The notes under the pieces were generated by a model. The model was not told where the DNA came from. It searched no databases and saw only the letters and a program-made list of their open reading frames with translations. The translations under genes and the position numbers were made by a program. DNA of 64,000 bases from Thermodesulfomicrobium sp. WS (lineage in GTDB: Bacteria > Desulfobacterota > Desulfovibrionia > Desulfovibrionales > Desulfomicrobiaceae), in NCBI RefSeq assembly GCF_027925145.1, contig NZ_AP027130.1, positions 1,674,001 to 1,738,000 on the forward strand, given 5' to 3'. Position 1 is the stretch's first letter. Each line of letters opens with the position of its first letter. This document shows positions 37,502-43,723 of the stretch, piece by piece.

Positions 37502-37559
37502 GGCAGCAGAGGAGTGTGACCGAGAGCGCCGCGTTTTTCAACTCCGGAAATCTTCCAAT

Positions 37560-38156
37560 ATGTGCGCAAAAACAGCTTCATCCCGAAAAGAATCGCTCCT
37601 TGCCGCAGCCAAAGCCCTCTTTGGGGTGCATGGATATGCGGAAACCACTTTCAAGAAGATCGCCCAGGAAGCCGGTGTGGCACTGGGGCTGCTCACCCAT
37701 TATTTCGGCACCAAAGAGCGCCTGTTTTTGGCCGCAGGCCTCGACGTGCTCCACGACCTCATCCGCACCGAAGAAGCGGCCCTGGCCCAAGCCACCACCG
37801 GACTGGAGGCGGTGCGCATCTTTGCGGAGACCTACTTCGCCTTTGCCACGGATCCCAAACGCCACTTCCTCATCCTCATCCGCTGCTCGCCGTTTAGCGA
37901 CCTCAAAGGCATGGCGGAGCGGGAAATCATGGAGCGTGACTTTGCAAAGCTCTATCTCCTTCTGGAAGAAGCCTTGGCCAAGGGGATGGCTGACGGCAGC
38001 ATCAAGCCCGCAGACCCCCACCGCACCAGCCGGGTCATCTTCTGCAACCTGGTAGGCGGGGTGCGGCACCATTTGCTCACTCCGTACGCCACCCCCACCC
38101 TGCTGCACGATCTCGTCGCGTTCATCATCAACGGTATCGCCGCGCCCACGCCATGA
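37560..38156 (+). CDS. TetR-family transcriptional regulator
   Basis: A 198-residue regulator. The N-terminal HTH is KESLLAAAKALFGVHGYAETT then KIAQEAGVALGLLTHYFGTKE (residues about 10-55), followed by an all-helical ligand-binding domain. ATG 37560 is chosen because the HTH lies 10 residues in; the open frame reaches back to 37371 without similarity. It is coupled to the ABC permease by an ATGA overlap, so it probably controls its own operon and perhaps the divergent metal exporter. Confidence 0.9.
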   Translation: MCAKTASSRKESLLAAAKALFGVHGYAETTFKKIAQEAGVALGLLTHYFGTKERLFLAAGLDVLHDLIRTEEAALAQATTGLEAVRIFAETYFAFATDPKRHFLILIRCSPFSDLKGMAEREIMERDFAKLYLLLEEALAKGMADGSIKPADPHRTSRVIFCNLVGGVRHHLLTPYATPTLLHDLVAFIINGIAAPTP

Positions 38157-39037
38157 CCACTGCCGCGCTGCTTGCCGCCCTGGAACAGGGATGCCTCTAT
38201 GGCATCATGGCCCTCGGGGTGTATATCACCTTCCGTGTCCTGGATTTTCCCGATCTTACCGTGGACGGCAGTCTGCCTCTGGGCGCGGCGGTGGCTGCAG
38301 TGGCCATCAGCGCCGGTATCGATCCCTACCGCGCCATGGCCCTGGCCAGTGCGGCAGGATTCGTGGCCGGCGCCTGCACCGCCCTGCTCCACACCCGCCT
38401 CGGGATCTTGGGGCTGCTCGCCTCCATCCTCACCATGATCGCCCTCTACTCCATCAATATCCGCATCATGGATGGCCCCAACCGCACCCTTTTGGGGCAG
38501 CCCACGTTTCTCGACGATCTCGAGGCCCTGGGGCTCCCCCTCTATCAAGTGACCCCGTGGGCCATGGCCGCCCTGGTGCTGGTCATCGCCTGCGGACTCA
38601 TTTGGTTCCTGCGCACCGAATACGGCCAAGCCATGCTGGCCACCGGCGACAATCCGGCCATGATCCGCGCCTTGGGAGTGAATACCGACCGGGTGCTCCT
38701 TGTGGGCGTTGGCATCTCCAACGCCTTGGTGGCCCTGTGCGGCGCCGTAGTGGCTCAAAATCAAGGCTCGGCAGACGCTACCATGGGGGTGGGCACCATC
38801 GTGGCGGGGCTGGCCTCGGTCATCCTCGGAGAGACCATCGTGGGCGCCTCCACCGTGGCCCGCGCCTGCCTGGCAGTGATCCTCGGCTCCATCCTCTACC
38901 GCGTTGCCATCGCCCTGGCGCTCAGCATCCACGTGGGCCCCTGGTCCCTTTCCCCCAGTGACCTCAACCTGGTCACCGCCATTTTGGTGGTGCTGGCCAT
39001 GACCTCCCCCCGACTGGCCCGAAGACGCACGTCATGA
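38153..39037 (+). CDS. ABC transporter permease, branched-chain/TrpY type
   Basis: A 294-residue hydrophobic protein with eight to nine predicted helices, of the BPD_transp_2 permease group. The FPDLTVDGSLPLGAAVAAVAI segment and GLIWFLRTEYGQAMLATGDN loop (residues about 25-45 and 145-165) match permeases of the TrpXYZ or unknown-substrate type. ATGA overlaps at both ends couple it to TetR and to the ATPase. No matching periplasmic binding protein follows. Confidence 0.85.
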   Translation: MTTAALLAALEQGCLYGIMALGVYITFRVLDFPDLTVDGSLPLGAAVAAVAISAGIDPYRAMALASAAGFVAGACTALLHTRLGILGLLASILTMIALYSINIRIMDGPNRTLLGQPTFLDDLEALGLPLYQVTPWAMAALVLVIACGLIWFLRTEYGQAMLATGDNPAMIRALGVNTDRVLLVGVGISNALVALCGAVVAQNQGSADATMGVGTIVAGLASVILGETIVGASTVARACLAVILGSILYRVAIALALSIHVGPWSLSPSDLNLVTAILVVLAMTSPRLARRRTS

Positions 39038-39819
39038 TCTCCATCCGTGGCATCCACAAATGGTTTCACCGAGGCACCCCACAGGAAGTCCATGCCTTAC
39101 AGGGCGTGGACCTCACCGTGGCGCCCGGGGACTTCATCACCATCATCGGCTCCAACGGCGCGGGCAAGTCCACTTTGCTCTCCTGCGTGGCCGGGGCCCT
39201 GACCATCGATGCTGGCAGCATCCATTTTCACGATACCGATGTCACCTCCTGGCCCGAATACCGCCGCGCCCGGCTGGTGGCCCGAGTCTTTCAAGACCCG
39301 CTGCGCGGCACCTTTGGCGGCGGCACCATCGCCCAGAACCTGGCACTGGCCCTGCGCCGGGGAGCGCCGCGCGGCCTTCGCCCCGGGGTGCGCCGCCAGG
39401 AGCTGGCCTTGTTTCAAGAACGCCTGGCGTGCCTCGGCCTGGGGCTGGAACACCGCCTGCACGACCGCGTGGCGCTGCTGTCCGGCGGCCAGCGCCAGGC
39501 CCTCACCATGGTCATGGCCACCCTGCGCCGGCCGGAACTCCTGCTTCTCGACGAGCATACCGCGGCCCTGGACCCCAAGACCGCCGCGCACATCCTGGAG
39601 CTTACCGAGCGCACCGTGGCGGAGCACGGCATCACCACCCTCATGGTCACCCACAACATGGCCCACGCCATCGCCCTGGGAAACCGCCTCGTGATGATGC
39701 ATCACGGCCGCATCGTGCTCGAGGCCCGCGGCGAGGAAAAGGCCGCGCTCACCGTCGCCACCCTCCTCGACCGCTTCCACGACCTCAATGCCGCCTCGGA
39801 CCGGATGGTCCTGAACTGA
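39034..39819 (+). CDS. ABC transporter ATPase, TrpZ type
   Basis: A 261-residue ATPase with Walker A GSNGAGKST (about residue 41), signature LLSGGQRQALTM, Walker B LLLLDEHTAALDPK and switch histidine in VTHNMAH. The EHTAALDP wording is typical of the group that pairs with BPD_transp_2 permeases of unknown substrate. It begins at ATG 39034, overlapping the permease stop. Confidence 0.88.
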   Translation: MISIRGIHKWFHRGTPQEVHALQGVDLTVAPGDFITIIGSNGAGKSTLLSCVAGALTIDAGSIHFHDTDVTSWPEYRRARLVARVFQDPLRGTFGGGTIAQNLALALRRGAPRGLRPGVRRQELALFQERLACLGLGLEHRLHDRVALLSGGQRQALTMVMATLRRPELLLLDEHTAALDPKTAAHILELTERTVAEHGITTLMVTHNMAHAIALGNRLVMMHHGRIVLEARGEEKAALTVATLLDRFHDLNAASDRMVLN

Positions 39820-39870: not shown

Positions 39871-39982
39871 GCCGCGTCCGCCTGGGCGCAAAAACCCTTC
39901 CAGCGCATCCCCTTGGTTTGTCCATATATGCCTGACCGTACGGCCGCGTCCGCCTGGGTGCGAAACCCCTTCCAGCGCATCC
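39871..39982 (+). repeat. Pair of 40-base direct repeats, 72-base period
   Basis: Two copies (39871-39910 and 39943-39982) match at 37 of 40 bases and are separated by 32 bases. They lie in the 204-base gap between the ABC ATPase and the PhnD-like lipoprotein. The 72-base period is a multiple of three and both copies are open in the lipoprotein's frame, but no start codon precedes the first copy, so they are probably not translated. Confidence 0.75.
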
Positions 39983-40023: not shown

Positions 40024-40947
40024 ATGCACTTCCTTCTGCGCGTTGGCATTCTCCTGCTGGTGTGCGCCGGCGGCGTTGGCTGCTCCGGGCAAGAGGACGC
40101 GCGCTTCGTGGACTGGAACAAGCGCGCCCCCGTGGCCTTGCCGCGCCAAGAGCCCGCCATCACCTACGCCTACCTTCCCCAGTACACCCATGCAGTGTCC
40201 TTCGAGCGCCACCGCCGGATCCTCGAATACCTGCGCCAAGCCACGGGACTGCCTTTCCGTCAGGTCTTCCCCGCCACCTTTGCCGAGCACATGGCCATGG
40301 TGGAGCGTGGAGACATCGATATCTCCTTCACCAACCCCTTTGTGTACGTCCTCCTCCACCACCGCGCCGGGGCGCAGGTCTTTGCCCGAGCCGTGGAAGA
40401 GGAGGGCGGCGCGGACTTTCAGGGGCAGGTCATCGTCCGCGCGGACAACGCCGCCATCACCTCCCTGGAGGACTGCCGGGGCAAGACCTGGATCGCGGTG
40501 GAGCCCACCTCTGCTGGCGGCTACCTCTTCCCCTTGGCGCTGTTTCACGAGCACGGCATCACCCTGGACCAATTCGCCCGCGTGGAATTCGCCCGCGGTG
40601 TCGGCGGCAAGCAGGAGCAGGTGGTGCTCGCCGTGCTTTCCGGTGCCTATGACATCGGCTCCATCCGCAAAGGCACCCTGGATATCGTTGCCCGACGCTA
40701 CGACACCTCCGCCATCCGGGTGCTGGCGGAAACGCCTCCATACCCGGGCTGGCTCTTCTGCGCCCGCAAAGACCTCTCCCCAGAGGTCACCCAGCAGGTA
40801 GCCCAGGCCCTGACCGCCCTGCGCCGACCCAAAGACGAAAGCATCCTCGCCCCTGCGGGACTCACGGCCATTATCCCTGCCAGCCACGCCGACTACCGTC
40901 CCATCGAAAAACTCATGCATACCCTGGGGATGGAGACGGTCCCATGA
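40024..40947 (+). CDS. PhnD-like periplasmic binding lipoprotein
   Basis: A 307-residue lipoprotein with signal peptide and lipobox (residues about 5-20, GGVGC). The mature part is a phosphonate-binding-like fold (YLPQYTHAVSFERHRRILEYL; FTNPFVYVLLH; CRGKTWIAVEPTSAGGYLFP). The ATG at 40024 gives the clean signal peptide; the frame is open further upstream without similarity. It overlaps the histidine-kinase start by ATGA. That coupling suggests it senses a ligand for the kinase rather than feeding a transporter. Confidence 0.85.
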   Translation: MHFLLRVGILLLVCAGGVGCSGQEDARFVDWNKRAPVALPRQEPAITYAYLPQYTHAVSFERHRRILEYLRQATGLPFRQVFPATFAEHMAMVERGDIDISFTNPFVYVLLHHRAGAQVFARAVEEEGGADFQGQVIVRADNAAITSLEDCRGKTWIAVEPTSAGGYLFPLALFHEHGITLDQFARVEFARGVGGKQEQVVLAVLSGAYDIGSIRKGTLDIVARRYDTSAIRVLAETPPYPGWLFCARKDLSPEVTQQVAQALTALRRPKDESILAPAGLTAIIPASHADYRPIEKLMHTLGMETVP

Positions 40948-42848
40948 AGCGCCTCTTTAGCCGACTCTCCTTCGAGACCAAGCTCAATCTCGGCATCACC
41001 ACCATCATCGCCACCATGGCCCTCACCCTGCTCCCCCTTGTGGTGAGCATCACCAAAGACGCCCTGCTGGAAGAACACCGCAAGCGCGGCGCAGACATCG
41101 CGGCATCCCTGGCTGTCCGCGCCGTCGACCCGCTGCTCGCCCTGGACTTTTTACGCCTGCGGGAACTGGTGGCCGAACCCCGGGACGTGACCTACATCTT
41201 CATCCAAGACCGGGCCGGCCGCATCCTCGCCCACTCCTTCGGCCCAGACTTTCCCGTGGATCTTGCGACCGCCAACCATGCCGATCCCCAAAACCCCATG
41301 CGCATCCAACTCATCGACAACGGCATGGAACGCATCGACGACATCGCCACCCTCATCCGCGTGCACGACGAGCCCATCGGCACCGTACGCCTGGGTCTTT
41401 CCCGGCGCGCGGCCTCCGAGATCCTCGACCACCTCGTGGCCACGCTCATGATCATCTTCCTCACCGGCCTGACCCTGGCCTCCGCCGCCGGGACCCTCTT
41501 TGCCCGCACCATCACCTCCCGCCTGGATCGCCTCCAGTCCCGGGCCGGGGCCTTGCGGCAACGCCACCTGCCCGAGACTTCGCCCACCCTGCCCGATCCG
41601 CCGCACCAAGGGGACGAAATCAGCGCCCTGGAGCACGCCTTCTCCGCCATGGCCCGCGAGCTCGATCACCGCATGGGCGAGCTCCTCCAAGCCCAGCGTC
41701 GGCTGGAAGAACAGACCCGCCTGCTCTCCACAGTGCTCGACGCCAACCCGGACCGCATCTGTCTGCGCGACACCCGCATGATCTACCACGCCGCCAACGA
41801 AGCCTTCTGCCAGGCCGTCGGTGTCTCCAAGGAGGACATCCCCGGCCGCACCGACTTCGACCTCTTTGCCGAAGACGAGGCCGAACGCCGCCACCTGGAG
41901 GGCCGAGACGTGCTTGCCAGCGGCCAGCGCATGGAACGTCAAGAGCAGGAGACCACTGCCCAGGGTTCCCGCTGGTTTCACGTCATCCAAATTCCGGTGC
42001 GCGGGGCCCGGGGCCGCATCCTGGGTCTGCTGCGCATGGAACGGGATATCACGGCCATGAAAGACTATGAGCGCCAACTCATCCAGTCCCAGAAGATCGA
42101 ATCCCTGGGCAAGCTCGCCGGCGGCGTGGCCCACGAGATCAACACCCCGCTGGGCATCATCCTCGGCACCACCCAACTGCTCCTCGACGATGTGCCCGCA
42201 GACTCCTCCATGGCCGAAGACCTGCGCACCATCGAGCGCCACACCAAGGCCTGCCGCAAGATCGTGGCCGATCTCCTGGAGTTCTCCCATGCCTCCACCT
42301 CGGAAAAGGTGGAGATGTGCTTCAACAATTCCGTCATGGAGGCGGTCAGCCTGGTGCGCCACACCTTTTCCCTGGACCAGGTGACCATTGCCACAGACCT
42401 GGACGACTCCTTTCCCATCATCTACGGGGACCCCGAAGAGCTCAAGCAAGTGTGGATCAATCTCCTCACCAATGCCCGAGACGCCCTCCCCCAAGGGGGC
42501 ATCATCGCCGTGCGCACCACCTTGCTGCGTGCGGAGAGCTGCGTGCGCCTGGAGGTGGCGGACACGGGCATCGGCATCGATGCCGCAAGCATCTCCAAGG
42601 TGTTCGACCCATTCTTCACCACCAAGCCCGTGGGACAAGGCACCGGCCTGGGGCTCTCGGTGAGCTATAGCATCATTGAAAAACATAAAGGCCAGATCCA
42701 GGTCCACAGCCCGGTGCCCGAGACCTTTCCCTGGCCTGTGCCTGTGGATGGGCCGCATTGCGGCCCCGGCACCCTGTTTACCGTGACCATCCCCCTCGAT
42801 CACGCTTCCCTGGAGGACCACCATGGCCCACATTCTCGCCCTCGATGA
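40944..42848 (+). CDS. Membrane sensor histidine kinase (HAMP, PAS, HisKA, HATPase)
   Basis: A 634-residue kinase: two membrane helices (about 15-37 and 165-188) enclosing a periplasmic segment, HAMP (about 190-245), PAS (about 260-370), HisKA with the phospho-accepting His in GGVAHEINTPLGI, and HATPase_c (NLLTNARDA, VADTGIGID, GTGLGLSVS). It is coupled to the PhnD-like lipoprotein upstream and overlaps the receiver gene by 26 bases. Confidence 0.92.
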   Translation: MKRLFSRLSFETKLNLGITTIIATMALTLLPLVVSITKDALLEEHRKRGADIAASLAVRAVDPLLALDFLRLRELVAEPRDVTYIFIQDRAGRILAHSFGPDFPVDLATANHADPQNPMRIQLIDNGMERIDDIATLIRVHDEPIGTVRLGLSRRAASEILDHLVATLMIIFLTGLTLASAAGTLFARTITSRLDRLQSRAGALRQRHLPETSPTLPDPPHQGDEISALEHAFSAMARELDHRMGELLQAQRRLEEQTRLLSTVLDANPDRICLRDTRMIYHAANEAFCQAVGVSKEDIPGRTDFDLFAEDEAERRHLEGRDVLASGQRMERQEQETTAQGSRWFHVIQIPVRGARGRILGLLRMERDITAMKDYERQLIQSQKIESLGKLAGGVAHEINTPLGIILGTTQLLLDDVPADSSMAEDLRTIERHTKACRKIVADLLEFSHASTSEKVEMCFNNSVMEAVSLVRHTFSLDQVTIATDLDDSFPIIYGDPEELKQVWINLLTNARDALPQGGIIAVRTTLLRAESCVRLEVADTGIGIDAASISKVFDPFFTTKPVGQGTGLGLSVSYSIIEKHKGQIQVHSPVPETFPWPVPVDGPHCGPGTLFTVTIPLDHASLEDHHGPHSRPR

Positions 42849-43191
42849 CGTCTCGGACGCCGCAGTCTTGATCCGCCGCATCCTGGAGCGTCGCGGGCAC
42901 ACCGTCAAAGCCATGACCGATGAAGACGACGCCATTCGCTACGTGGAAAATCAGCCCGTGGACATGGTCATTTTGGATATGAAGCTCAAACGTATGAGCG
43001 GTGTGGATGTGCTGCGCAAAATGAAAGCCCTCCGCCCCGCGCTCAAGGCCATCATGCTGACCGGATATCCGACGCTGGACACGGCGCACGCCGCGCTGCG
43101 GCTGGGGGCCAGCGCATATTGCGTCAAACCCATCGACAAGACCGAGCTCGAAGACACGGTGGCGCGGGTGCTGGCCGAACCTGCTGCATGA
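42823..43191 (+). CDS. Stand-alone response-regulator receiver
   Basis: A 122-residue CheY-like domain. The acidic pair is DD at residues 8-9, the phospho-accepting Asp is in MVILDMKLKRMSG, and the conserved Lys is in YCVKPID. No output domain is present, so it probably acts by protein contact. ATG 42823 follows GGAGG and overlaps the kinase 3' end. Confidence 0.92.
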   Translation: MAHILALDDVSDAAVLIRRILERRGHTVKAMTDEDDAIRYVENQPVDMVILDMKLKRMSGVDVLRKMKALRPALKAIMLTGYPTLDTAHAALRLGASAYCVKPIDKTELEDTVARVLAEPAA

Positions 43192-43246
43192 AGACGCTGG
43201 CCTTTCCCCACGCCCTCAGCTATACGTCCCTTTCCGGGAGGACATC

Positions 43247-43723
43247 GTGAACGACACCATCCAAGGCATCATCAAGCAATTTGTGGACGCCACGGCCAGC
43301 GTGCTCGGCACCATGGCCAATACTCCGGTCACCCCCAAGGCCCCCTACGTCAAAAAAGACTCCGTGGCCCAAGGCGACATCACCGGCGTCATTGGCTTTT
43401 CCAACCCCAAAGGCAAAAGCAAAGGCACCATGTCCATCACCTTCACCAAAAAGGCGGCCTTGGGGATCATCGGCGGCATGCTCTTTGAGGAACTCACCGA
43501 GATCACGCCCGAGGTAGAAGACGCCGTGGGGGAACTCACCAACATGATCTCGGGCCAGGCGCGCAAAGGTCTGGTGGAGCTGGGACTTGTCTTCGAAGGC
43601 GCCATCCCCTCGGTGGTCACGGGCCAGGGACACACCATCCGCCACGTATCCACCAACGCCATCCTGGCCATTCCATTCGACACTCCCCATGGCCCCATCA
43701 TGGTGGAAGTGTGCTTTAGCTAA
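43247..43723 (+). CDS. cheX: CheX-like phosphatase of receiver domains
   Basis: A 158-residue protein of the CheX/CheC/FliY phosphatase fold. The motif ExxN with a Pro near N+22 is present (GELTNMISG ... GAIP). The GTG start at 43247 follows GGGAGGA. CheX dephosphorylates receiver Asp, and here its most likely substrate is the adjacent stand-alone receiver. Confidence 0.82.
   Translation: MNDTIQGIIKQFVDATASVLGTMANTPVTPKAPYVKKDSVAQGDITGVIGFSNPKGKSKGTMSITFTKKAALGIIGGMLFEELTEITPEVEDAVGELTNMISGQARKGLVELGLVFEGAIPSVVTGQGHTIRHVSTNAILAIPFDTPHGPIMVEVCFS

Follow-up and report, generated by a model that had tools for sequence, protein, structure and literature searches.

A stretch of 64,000 nucleotides from the genome of Thermodesulfomicrobium sp. 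WS, referred to here as the window, holds four closely packed genes encoding a periplasmic binding lipoprotein (the substrate-binding protein, SBP), a membrane sensor histidine kinase, a lone receiver and a CheX-type phosphatase (Table 1). The host belongs to the family Desulfomicrobiaceae (Desulfovibrionales, Thermodesulfobacteriota), and its genome (G000) is one contig of 2.36 Mb. An initial annotation of this DNA had described the four genes as a complete circuit that senses a ligand, phosphorylates and erases, with no DNA-binding output, and had suggested control of motility, pilus or enzyme activity. Here we propose, with a probability of roughly 60%, that the set forms the sensory half of a pathway of sulfate reducers known as the nitrate cluster, rearranged and with an added CheX.

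Table 1. Features of the locus and of related genes elsewhere in the same genome (positions are those of the window, except for entries beginning with C1).
Feature	Position	Strand	Details
PhnD/PtxB-like periplasmic binding lipoprotein (SBP), 307 aa	40024-40947	+	PF12974, E 1.4e-64
Membrane sensor histidine kinase, 634 aa	40944-42848	+	sCache_3_2, HAMP, PAS_4, HisKA, HATPase_c
Single-domain receiver, 122 aa	42823-43191	+	PF00072 as sole domain; D8/D9, D52, T80, K102
CheX-type phosphatase, 158 aa, GTG start	43247-43723	+	PF13690, 75.4 bits against a cut-off of 27
TetR regulator, PF02653 permease and ABC ATPase	37545-39819		upstream of the lipoprotein gene; permease-ATPase 38153-39819
Two 40-nt direct repeats	39871-39910 and 39943-39982		93% alike, spacing 72
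PPDK-like and dual-specificity phosphatase (DSP) orthologues	C1:2331825-2335290	-	adjacent; about 615 kb from the receiver
TauE homologue and small DVU0250-like gene	C1:737.9-739.4 kb		together; about 1 Mb from the four-gene set

All four reading frames were confirmed with their domains, and they are as tightly spaced as had been described: the lipoprotein and kinase genes share 4 bp and the kinase and receiver genes 26 bp, and 55 bp separate the receiver from CheX. The named domains of the four proteins all pass the Pfam gathering cut-offs (HAMP barely, 25.3 against 25), and because the proteins are also conserved across other genomes, the set is not a product of chance. The lipoprotein has a lipobox-like GVGC ending at C20; the solved structures nearest to it are HtxB (2.3e-20) and PtxB, with AioX at 6.2e-7. 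The anatomy of sensing and phosphorylation proposed earlier holds, as the kinase keeps its catalytic residues (H397 within HEINT, the N box, G1 and G2) and the receiver keeps D52. The receiver family is highly conserved, with a mean column identity of 71% over 28 sequences. Since HEINT fits what we take to be the kinase-phosphatase motif of HisKA kinases, the kinase may itself reset the receiver. The CheX protein carries E96-x-x-N99, presumably the catalytic ExxN motif of CheX phosphatases, and both residues are conserved in the alignment with 3h4y, which together with 3hm4 and 6vpw is among its structural relatives.

The lipoprotein, kinase and receiver recur widely. Neighbourhood searches with the CheX, PPDK-like and SBP proteins covered 61, 101 and 101 genomes, respectively, from which stretches were then taken; module genes were counted as adjacent when they lay on one strand within 1 kb, and weak SBP matches in G023 and G026 (second hits) and in G059 were excluded before counting, the G059 stretch not being included. 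Lipoprotein orthologues were found in 57 of the 101 genomes searched, own included. The kinase gene comes next after the SBP gene in 54 of these 57, and in the remaining three (G006, G014 and G020) the start of the kinase is visible before the contig ends. The three genes form the head of a longer order, namely SBP, kinase, receiver, PPDK-like protein and DSP, and all five are consecutive in 39 of the 60 genomes examined. Of the 57 receiver-bearing genomes (of 101, own included; 52 come from the module-gene count and 5 from further stretches), 48 have the PPDK-like gene as the module gene that comes next behind the receiver, with a gap of less than 300 bp in 45 of the 48 and of about 950 bp in G033, G049 and G053. 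Nine receiver-bearing genomes depart from this order: all three members of the window's genus, together with G026, G011, G013, G095, G099 and G100. The initial annotation did not note that the set normally belongs to a longer operon. In short, the unit that it picked out is real and conserved, but is a front half that was taken for the whole.

The same genes also tend to occur together. Over the 101 genomes, uncorrected for kinship, phi is 0.92 for SBP and receiver and 0.82 for receiver and DSP. Among 297 genomes of the phylum (orthologue thresholds of E up to 1e-60 for SBP and up to 1e-40 for DSP), SBP was found in 19, DSP in 27 and both in 12, against 1.7 expected by simple multiplication; the host's own order accounts for 4 of the 12. 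The receiver adjoins a PPDK-like and/or DSP gene in 8 of 20 chosen stretches (19 such phylum genomes), and in one genome, G367, the PPDK-like and DSP domains are fused in a single frame of 1272 aa, which supports joint action of the two proteins.

In the host genome the PPDK-like and DSP orthologues are retained at another locus (Table 1). Throughout the window's genus (G000, G001 and G002), CheX stands behind the receiver, and the PPDK-like and DSP genes are not contiguous with it; G001 also carries the pair (L148). The TauE homologue and the small gene lie at a third place, with 65% and 35% identity, respectively, to their counterparts in L172. The host's PPDK-like protein clusters with that of a sister genus, g4 (probably Desulfomicrobium), with support of 100/99, and the DSP tree leaves the host's DSP copy unplaced. 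The simplest history would be that the common ancestor of the window's genus had already lost the output pair from its operon. That the host's PPDK-like gene came in horizontally or is a paralogue was considered and rejected, as the tree puts this copy with those of g4, although both rows of the window's genus in that tree carry a flag for unusual letter make-up. A CheA gene (Hpt, H-kinase_dim, CheW; L136:2098-4641), preceded by a receiver-like reading frame, is found some 1.2 kb away from the relocated pair. Judged by a simple regular expression that overlooks variants such as that of L139, most full-length kinase orthologues (42 of 53, e.g., L172:3900-5987) carry a Cys-rich insert of the form CW..C..CP between their HAMP and PAS domains, and the window's kinase does not. 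Loss of this insert was tried as a correlate of module splitting and found inconsistent, the insert being kept in some split genomes.

These observations bear on the view that the four genes are a stand-alone circuit, in which the receiver would control motility, pili or an unrelated enzyme and CheX would be its dedicated eraser. In the window's genus CheX is indeed the sole module gene linked behind the receiver, the output pair was not found in G002, and of 63 receiver positions whose conservation in 47 others reaches 85% or more, nine are changed in all three genus members, a pattern compatible with a new partner (the nine are spread along the chain, so a focus on one face of the receiver was rejected). 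Against this, most genomes with the receiver have the PPDK-like gene as its next module gene, the host keeps the PPDK-like and DSP pair, and the module occurs in genomes without CheW matches. Neither a complete circuit devoid of output nor control of motility is supported. We regard this view as improbable and prefer the reading of the set as the front of a longer pathway.

The host's PPDK-like protein has 800 aa, with ATP-grasp and phospho-His domains, and its model (pLDDT 85.7) resembles rifampin phosphotransferase, PEP synthase and PPDK over these two domains (5hv3, Z 38.6, 389 aligned, rmsd 3.0). H479 and the ATP-grasp residues R224, S225 and S226 are invariant in 37 sequences. The protein scores below the NCBIfam equivalog cut-offs for PEP synthase (208.5 against 598 and 205.7 against 739.75 bits). 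Pfam scans found no PEP-binding domain, and the fold comparison hardly reached residues 530-800; all structure matches fall on the ATP-grasp and His domains, leaving a helical N-terminus and a C-terminal part of about 270 residues uncovered. This C-terminal part has H, R and D residues that are invariant in the 37 sequences and might be an acceptor-handling domain. The DSP has 352 aa (model pLDDT 90.7) and a Cys-rich C-terminus; its residues 4-148 adopt a dual-specificity fold in the model (5z5a, Z 20.6, 143 aligned, rmsd 2.0, the C-terminal half being hardly covered), and P-loop residues H95, C96, G99 and R102 are invariant in 33 sequences. A weak, sub-cut-off CxxCxxCC match in a homologue was the one hit for its Cys-rich pattern. 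Among the relatives, a PPDK-like paralogue stands behind SBP and kinase in L179 (L179:5962-7926), as also in L139, L181 and L183. The L179 copy keeps the N- and C-terminal parts; by eye, both the His domain and the VRSSA motif of the ATP-grasp part are missing, and a Pfam scan found no mobile domain in it. It is perhaps a scaffold or decoy. In G088 the PPDK-like gene (L178:7161-9647) is split over two frames, through either breakage or sequencing error.

CheX is a real, lineage-specific addition to the module, its operon-borne copies found coming from two genera of one family. There are 14 such copies (three in the window's genus including the host, and 11 in g4), and they form one clade with support of 100/99, separate from the solo copies, whose own forks are often unresolved. 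Because the 14 copies are one clade, CheX probably entered the operon once, behind the DSP gene. In the window's genus it still adjoins the receiver though the intervening genes of the g4 operon are gone; two g4 genomes, G018 and G019, are missing CheX behind DSP. None of 38 genomes outside the family (within the same order, with some stretches ending at contig ends) has CheX in its module stretch. The nearest named contigs by CheX are from metagenome-assembled genomes of Desulfomicrobiaceae, DPEO01000125.1 (99% identical) and CALKRN010000014.1 (90%). In G367 a convergent CheX gene lies 59 bp from the fused PPDK-like/DSP frame, the only CheX in the 20 phylum stretches, and this placement may be chance.

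CheX probably resets the receiver. The pattern of its occurrence fits a useful, optional reset; it also fits a passenger that serves CheY. If the latter were true, CheX would act on chemotaxis CheY or on all receivers, and the module's receiver would be reset by its own kinase alone. The host has two CheX genes, and the second, together with chemotaxis genes, leaves other CheX targets possible. Over the 101 genomes CheX tracks CheW (phi 0.47) about as well as it tracks the receiver (phi 0.50). In family f2, close CheX relatives (56-69% identity) are encoded apart from SBP-kinase-receiver; G027 is among these genomes, and searches for SBP, receiver and DSP there came back empty. The module is also found without CheX in G023, G061, G070 and G083, the first three of which (100%, 89% and 96% complete) have no CheW match either. 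Between the window's genus and g4, CheX identity is 71-80% and receiver identity 62-67%, as if the target of CheX changed more slowly. On the other side, the operon copies are distinct from the solo copy kept in the same genome, and CheX stays beside SBP-kinase-receiver where PPDK-like and DSP have left. We therefore consider the passenger explanation unlikely, though it is the most serious competitor to a CheX that belongs to the pathway.

The longer operon corresponds to a locus with a published phenotype, the nitrate cluster DVU0251-DVU0245 / Dde_0598-Dde_0605 of two Desulfovibrio species (Korte et al. 2014, PMC4001038). In 22 of the relatives' SBP stretches (L139, L140, L152, L156, L158, L162, L163, L165-L172, L174, L175, L178, L179, L181, L183 and L186), a TauE permease gene and a small gene both lie upstream of the SBP gene on its strand, and the resulting sequence of TauE, small gene, PtxB-like SBP, kinase, receiver, PPDK-like and DSP is the DVU0251-DVU0245 order given in that paper. 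On this basis the lipoprotein of the window is taken as the orthologue of the cluster's SBP. According to the same paper, most single-gene disruptions of the cluster confer nitrate resistance. In both species nitrate fitness was high for mutants in the genes for the permease, SBP, receiver and PPDK-like protein, and in D. alaskensis also for kinase (2.34), small gene (2.88) and DSP (2.08) mutants. Single D. vulgaris mutants in DVU0246, DVU0247, DVU0250 and DVU0251 grew equally with and without 100 mM nitrate, and no tested D. vulgaris mutant outgrew the control on nitrite. The authors proposed leaky nitrate entry via a thiosulfate transporter (PMC4001038). A literature search with six DVU/Dde cluster tags matched this paper alone, and of the 15 papers listed from 60 matched by another search it was again the only one with the DVU tags. 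In the passages covered, PMC10102598 has no tested cluster tag, PMC4215793 and PMC6052904 have no tested Dde tag, and PMC3333781 has no mention of CheX, a word that is also absent from PMC4001038.

Several points weigh against identifying the four genes with the front of this pathway. The clusters were equated via gene order, domains and the 360-bp receiver gene, and DVU0246, published as 2235 bp long (PMC4001038), is shorter than its likely counterpart frame in L172. On the genetic side, DVU0249 (SBP) is not among the single mutants shown in that paper, the D. vulgaris DSP mutant was not nitrate-resistant, and pooled and single-mutant results for DVU0250 are opposite. The D. vulgaris kinase gene is annotated as a pseudogene with a pooled fitness of 1.43, and its single mutant had little or no effect (the authors' unpublished preliminary data, PMC4001038); transposon polarity may possibly lie behind the Desulfovibrio phenotypes. 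On the genomic side, CheX is absent from most versions of the module. G011 and G013 hold SBP-kinase and receiver without a DSP or a close PPDK-like gene, a DSP orthologue search in both found none, and the receiver can have another job there. G002 (85% complete) has no DSP match and only distant PPDK-like matches. Stems are long in the window's genus for the receiver (2.09, from a tree with the G001 and G002 rows in and the window's own row out), PPDK-like (1.56, both rows of the genus being flagged for unusual letter make-up) and DSP (1.17), and for this reason the contact between receiver and PPDK-like protein may be altered or lost in this genus; such faster change after the split might reflect a contact that became weaker or was re-tuned. 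As a side observation, the receiver gene in G011 and G013 adjoins, by eye, a putative inorganic pyrophosphatase gene (L249:7447-7875 and L250:7149-7577).

The region upstream of the lipoprotein gene offers a further reading, in which the lipoprotein would be the binding protein of the ABC permease-ATPase encoded there, and transport and sensing would be coupled as in PstS systems. Each of the three genomes of the genus has the TetR, permease and ATPase genes in front of the lipoprotein gene, and 204 bp separate the end of the ATPase gene from the lipoprotein gene with no binding-protein gene in between, an arrangement kept in G001 and G002. However, the permease is of the PF02653 type, and PhnD-type binding proteins normally serve permeases of other types; nor was any homologue of the permease or TetR found in 40 SBP stretches outside the genus (five of g4 with more than 5 kb upstream, most others with about 3 kb), where distant ATPases (27-32%) occurred in four. 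Because permease and TetR were not found there, it is the kinase that is the constant partner of the lipoprotein, and a dedicated transport role with the upstream genes is very unlikely. The two direct repeats lie just before the lipoprotein gene; the repeat matches twice within the window, and in the host genome the 121-base stretch with both copies has no match but itself. A scan for promoters and terminators gave one promoter-like site where 0.7 were expected and one terminator-like site where 2.9 were expected.

If the four genes are the sensory half of the nitrate-cluster pathway, the signal might run as follows. The lipoprotein would bind a periplasmic anion of the phosphite, phosphonate or sulfur-oxyanion kind, as its family suggests, and would dock on the sCache domain of the kinase, as proposed for AioX-AioS. 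The kinase would autophosphorylate at H397 and pass the phosphate to D52 of the receiver, which in turn would act by protein contact on the PPDK-like phosphotransferase encoded elsewhere, in keeping with the linkage of their genes in relatives. The PPDK-like enzyme would move a phosphate from ATP to an acceptor, and DSP, linked to it and fused with it once, would oppose it or share its target. The outcome could tune the entry or handling of the anion via the TauE-like permease, whose mutants share the Desulfovibrio phenotype. In this lineage, CheX and the presumed phosphatase motif of the kinase would speed dephosphorylation of the receiver. Put more generally, and only tentatively, the output of this two-component system could be, instead of DNA, cyclic-di-GMP or a motor, a phosphohistidine "dikinase" and a DSP forming a writer/eraser pair that is switched by a lone receiver and modifies an acceptor to gate oxyanion uptake. 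In the window's lineage this system would have become split across the genome and acquired CheX as a reset.

The conserved order of sensor, receiver, phosphotransferase and phosphatase, together with the gene fusion, makes this signalling chain explicit and testable, and if it is true, an enzyme-type output is added to those of two-component systems. To stop sulfate reducers from producing sulfide, nitrate is applied, and disruption of the cluster lets Desulfovibrio grow in its presence (PMC4001038). The CheX-bearing lineage is also a natural experiment on which receiver is served when cheX becomes tied to a non-chemotaxis receiver.

Compared with the nitrate cluster as described in PMC4001038, the window has the PtxB-like SBP, histidine kinase and lone receiver, contiguous and in the same order, and the host genome has the PPDK-like, DSP, TauE permease and DVU0250-like genes; unlike in the cluster, the output pair and the permease lie at two other loci and CheX stands behind the receiver. 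The window's kinase also differs from most orthologues searched by lacking the Cys-rich insert. The PPDK-like protein shares the ATP-grasp and phospho-His domains of PEP synthase, PPDK and rifampin phosphotransferase, with no PEP-binding domain reported for it by Pfam. The CheX protein belongs to the same family as those of 3h4y, 3hm4 and 3h2d (which we take to be from Desulfovibrio and Shewanella) and of Thermotoga and Borrelia, with ExxN present, and scores under the Thermotogales equivalog cut-off (49.3 against 280 bits); unlike in that known set, it is encoded behind a non-chemotaxis kinase-receiver pair. In TtrS-type kinases a PhnD-like sensor is fused to the kinase; here too PhnD-like sensing would feed a kinase, but the sensor is a separate lipoprotein, and the TtrS-type model NF040750 scores 36.3 bits against a cut-off of 750. 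The AioX-AioS-AioR and ArrX/ArxX systems likewise join a PhnD-fold binding protein, a sensor kinase and a response regulator, and the DNA target of AioR lies upstream of an RpoN promoter, as set out by Badilla et al. 2018 (PMC5908839). The lipoprotein of the window is closer in sequence to HtxB/PtxB than to AioX, and its receiver, in contrast to AioR, is a single PF00072 domain of 122 aa with no output domain attached.

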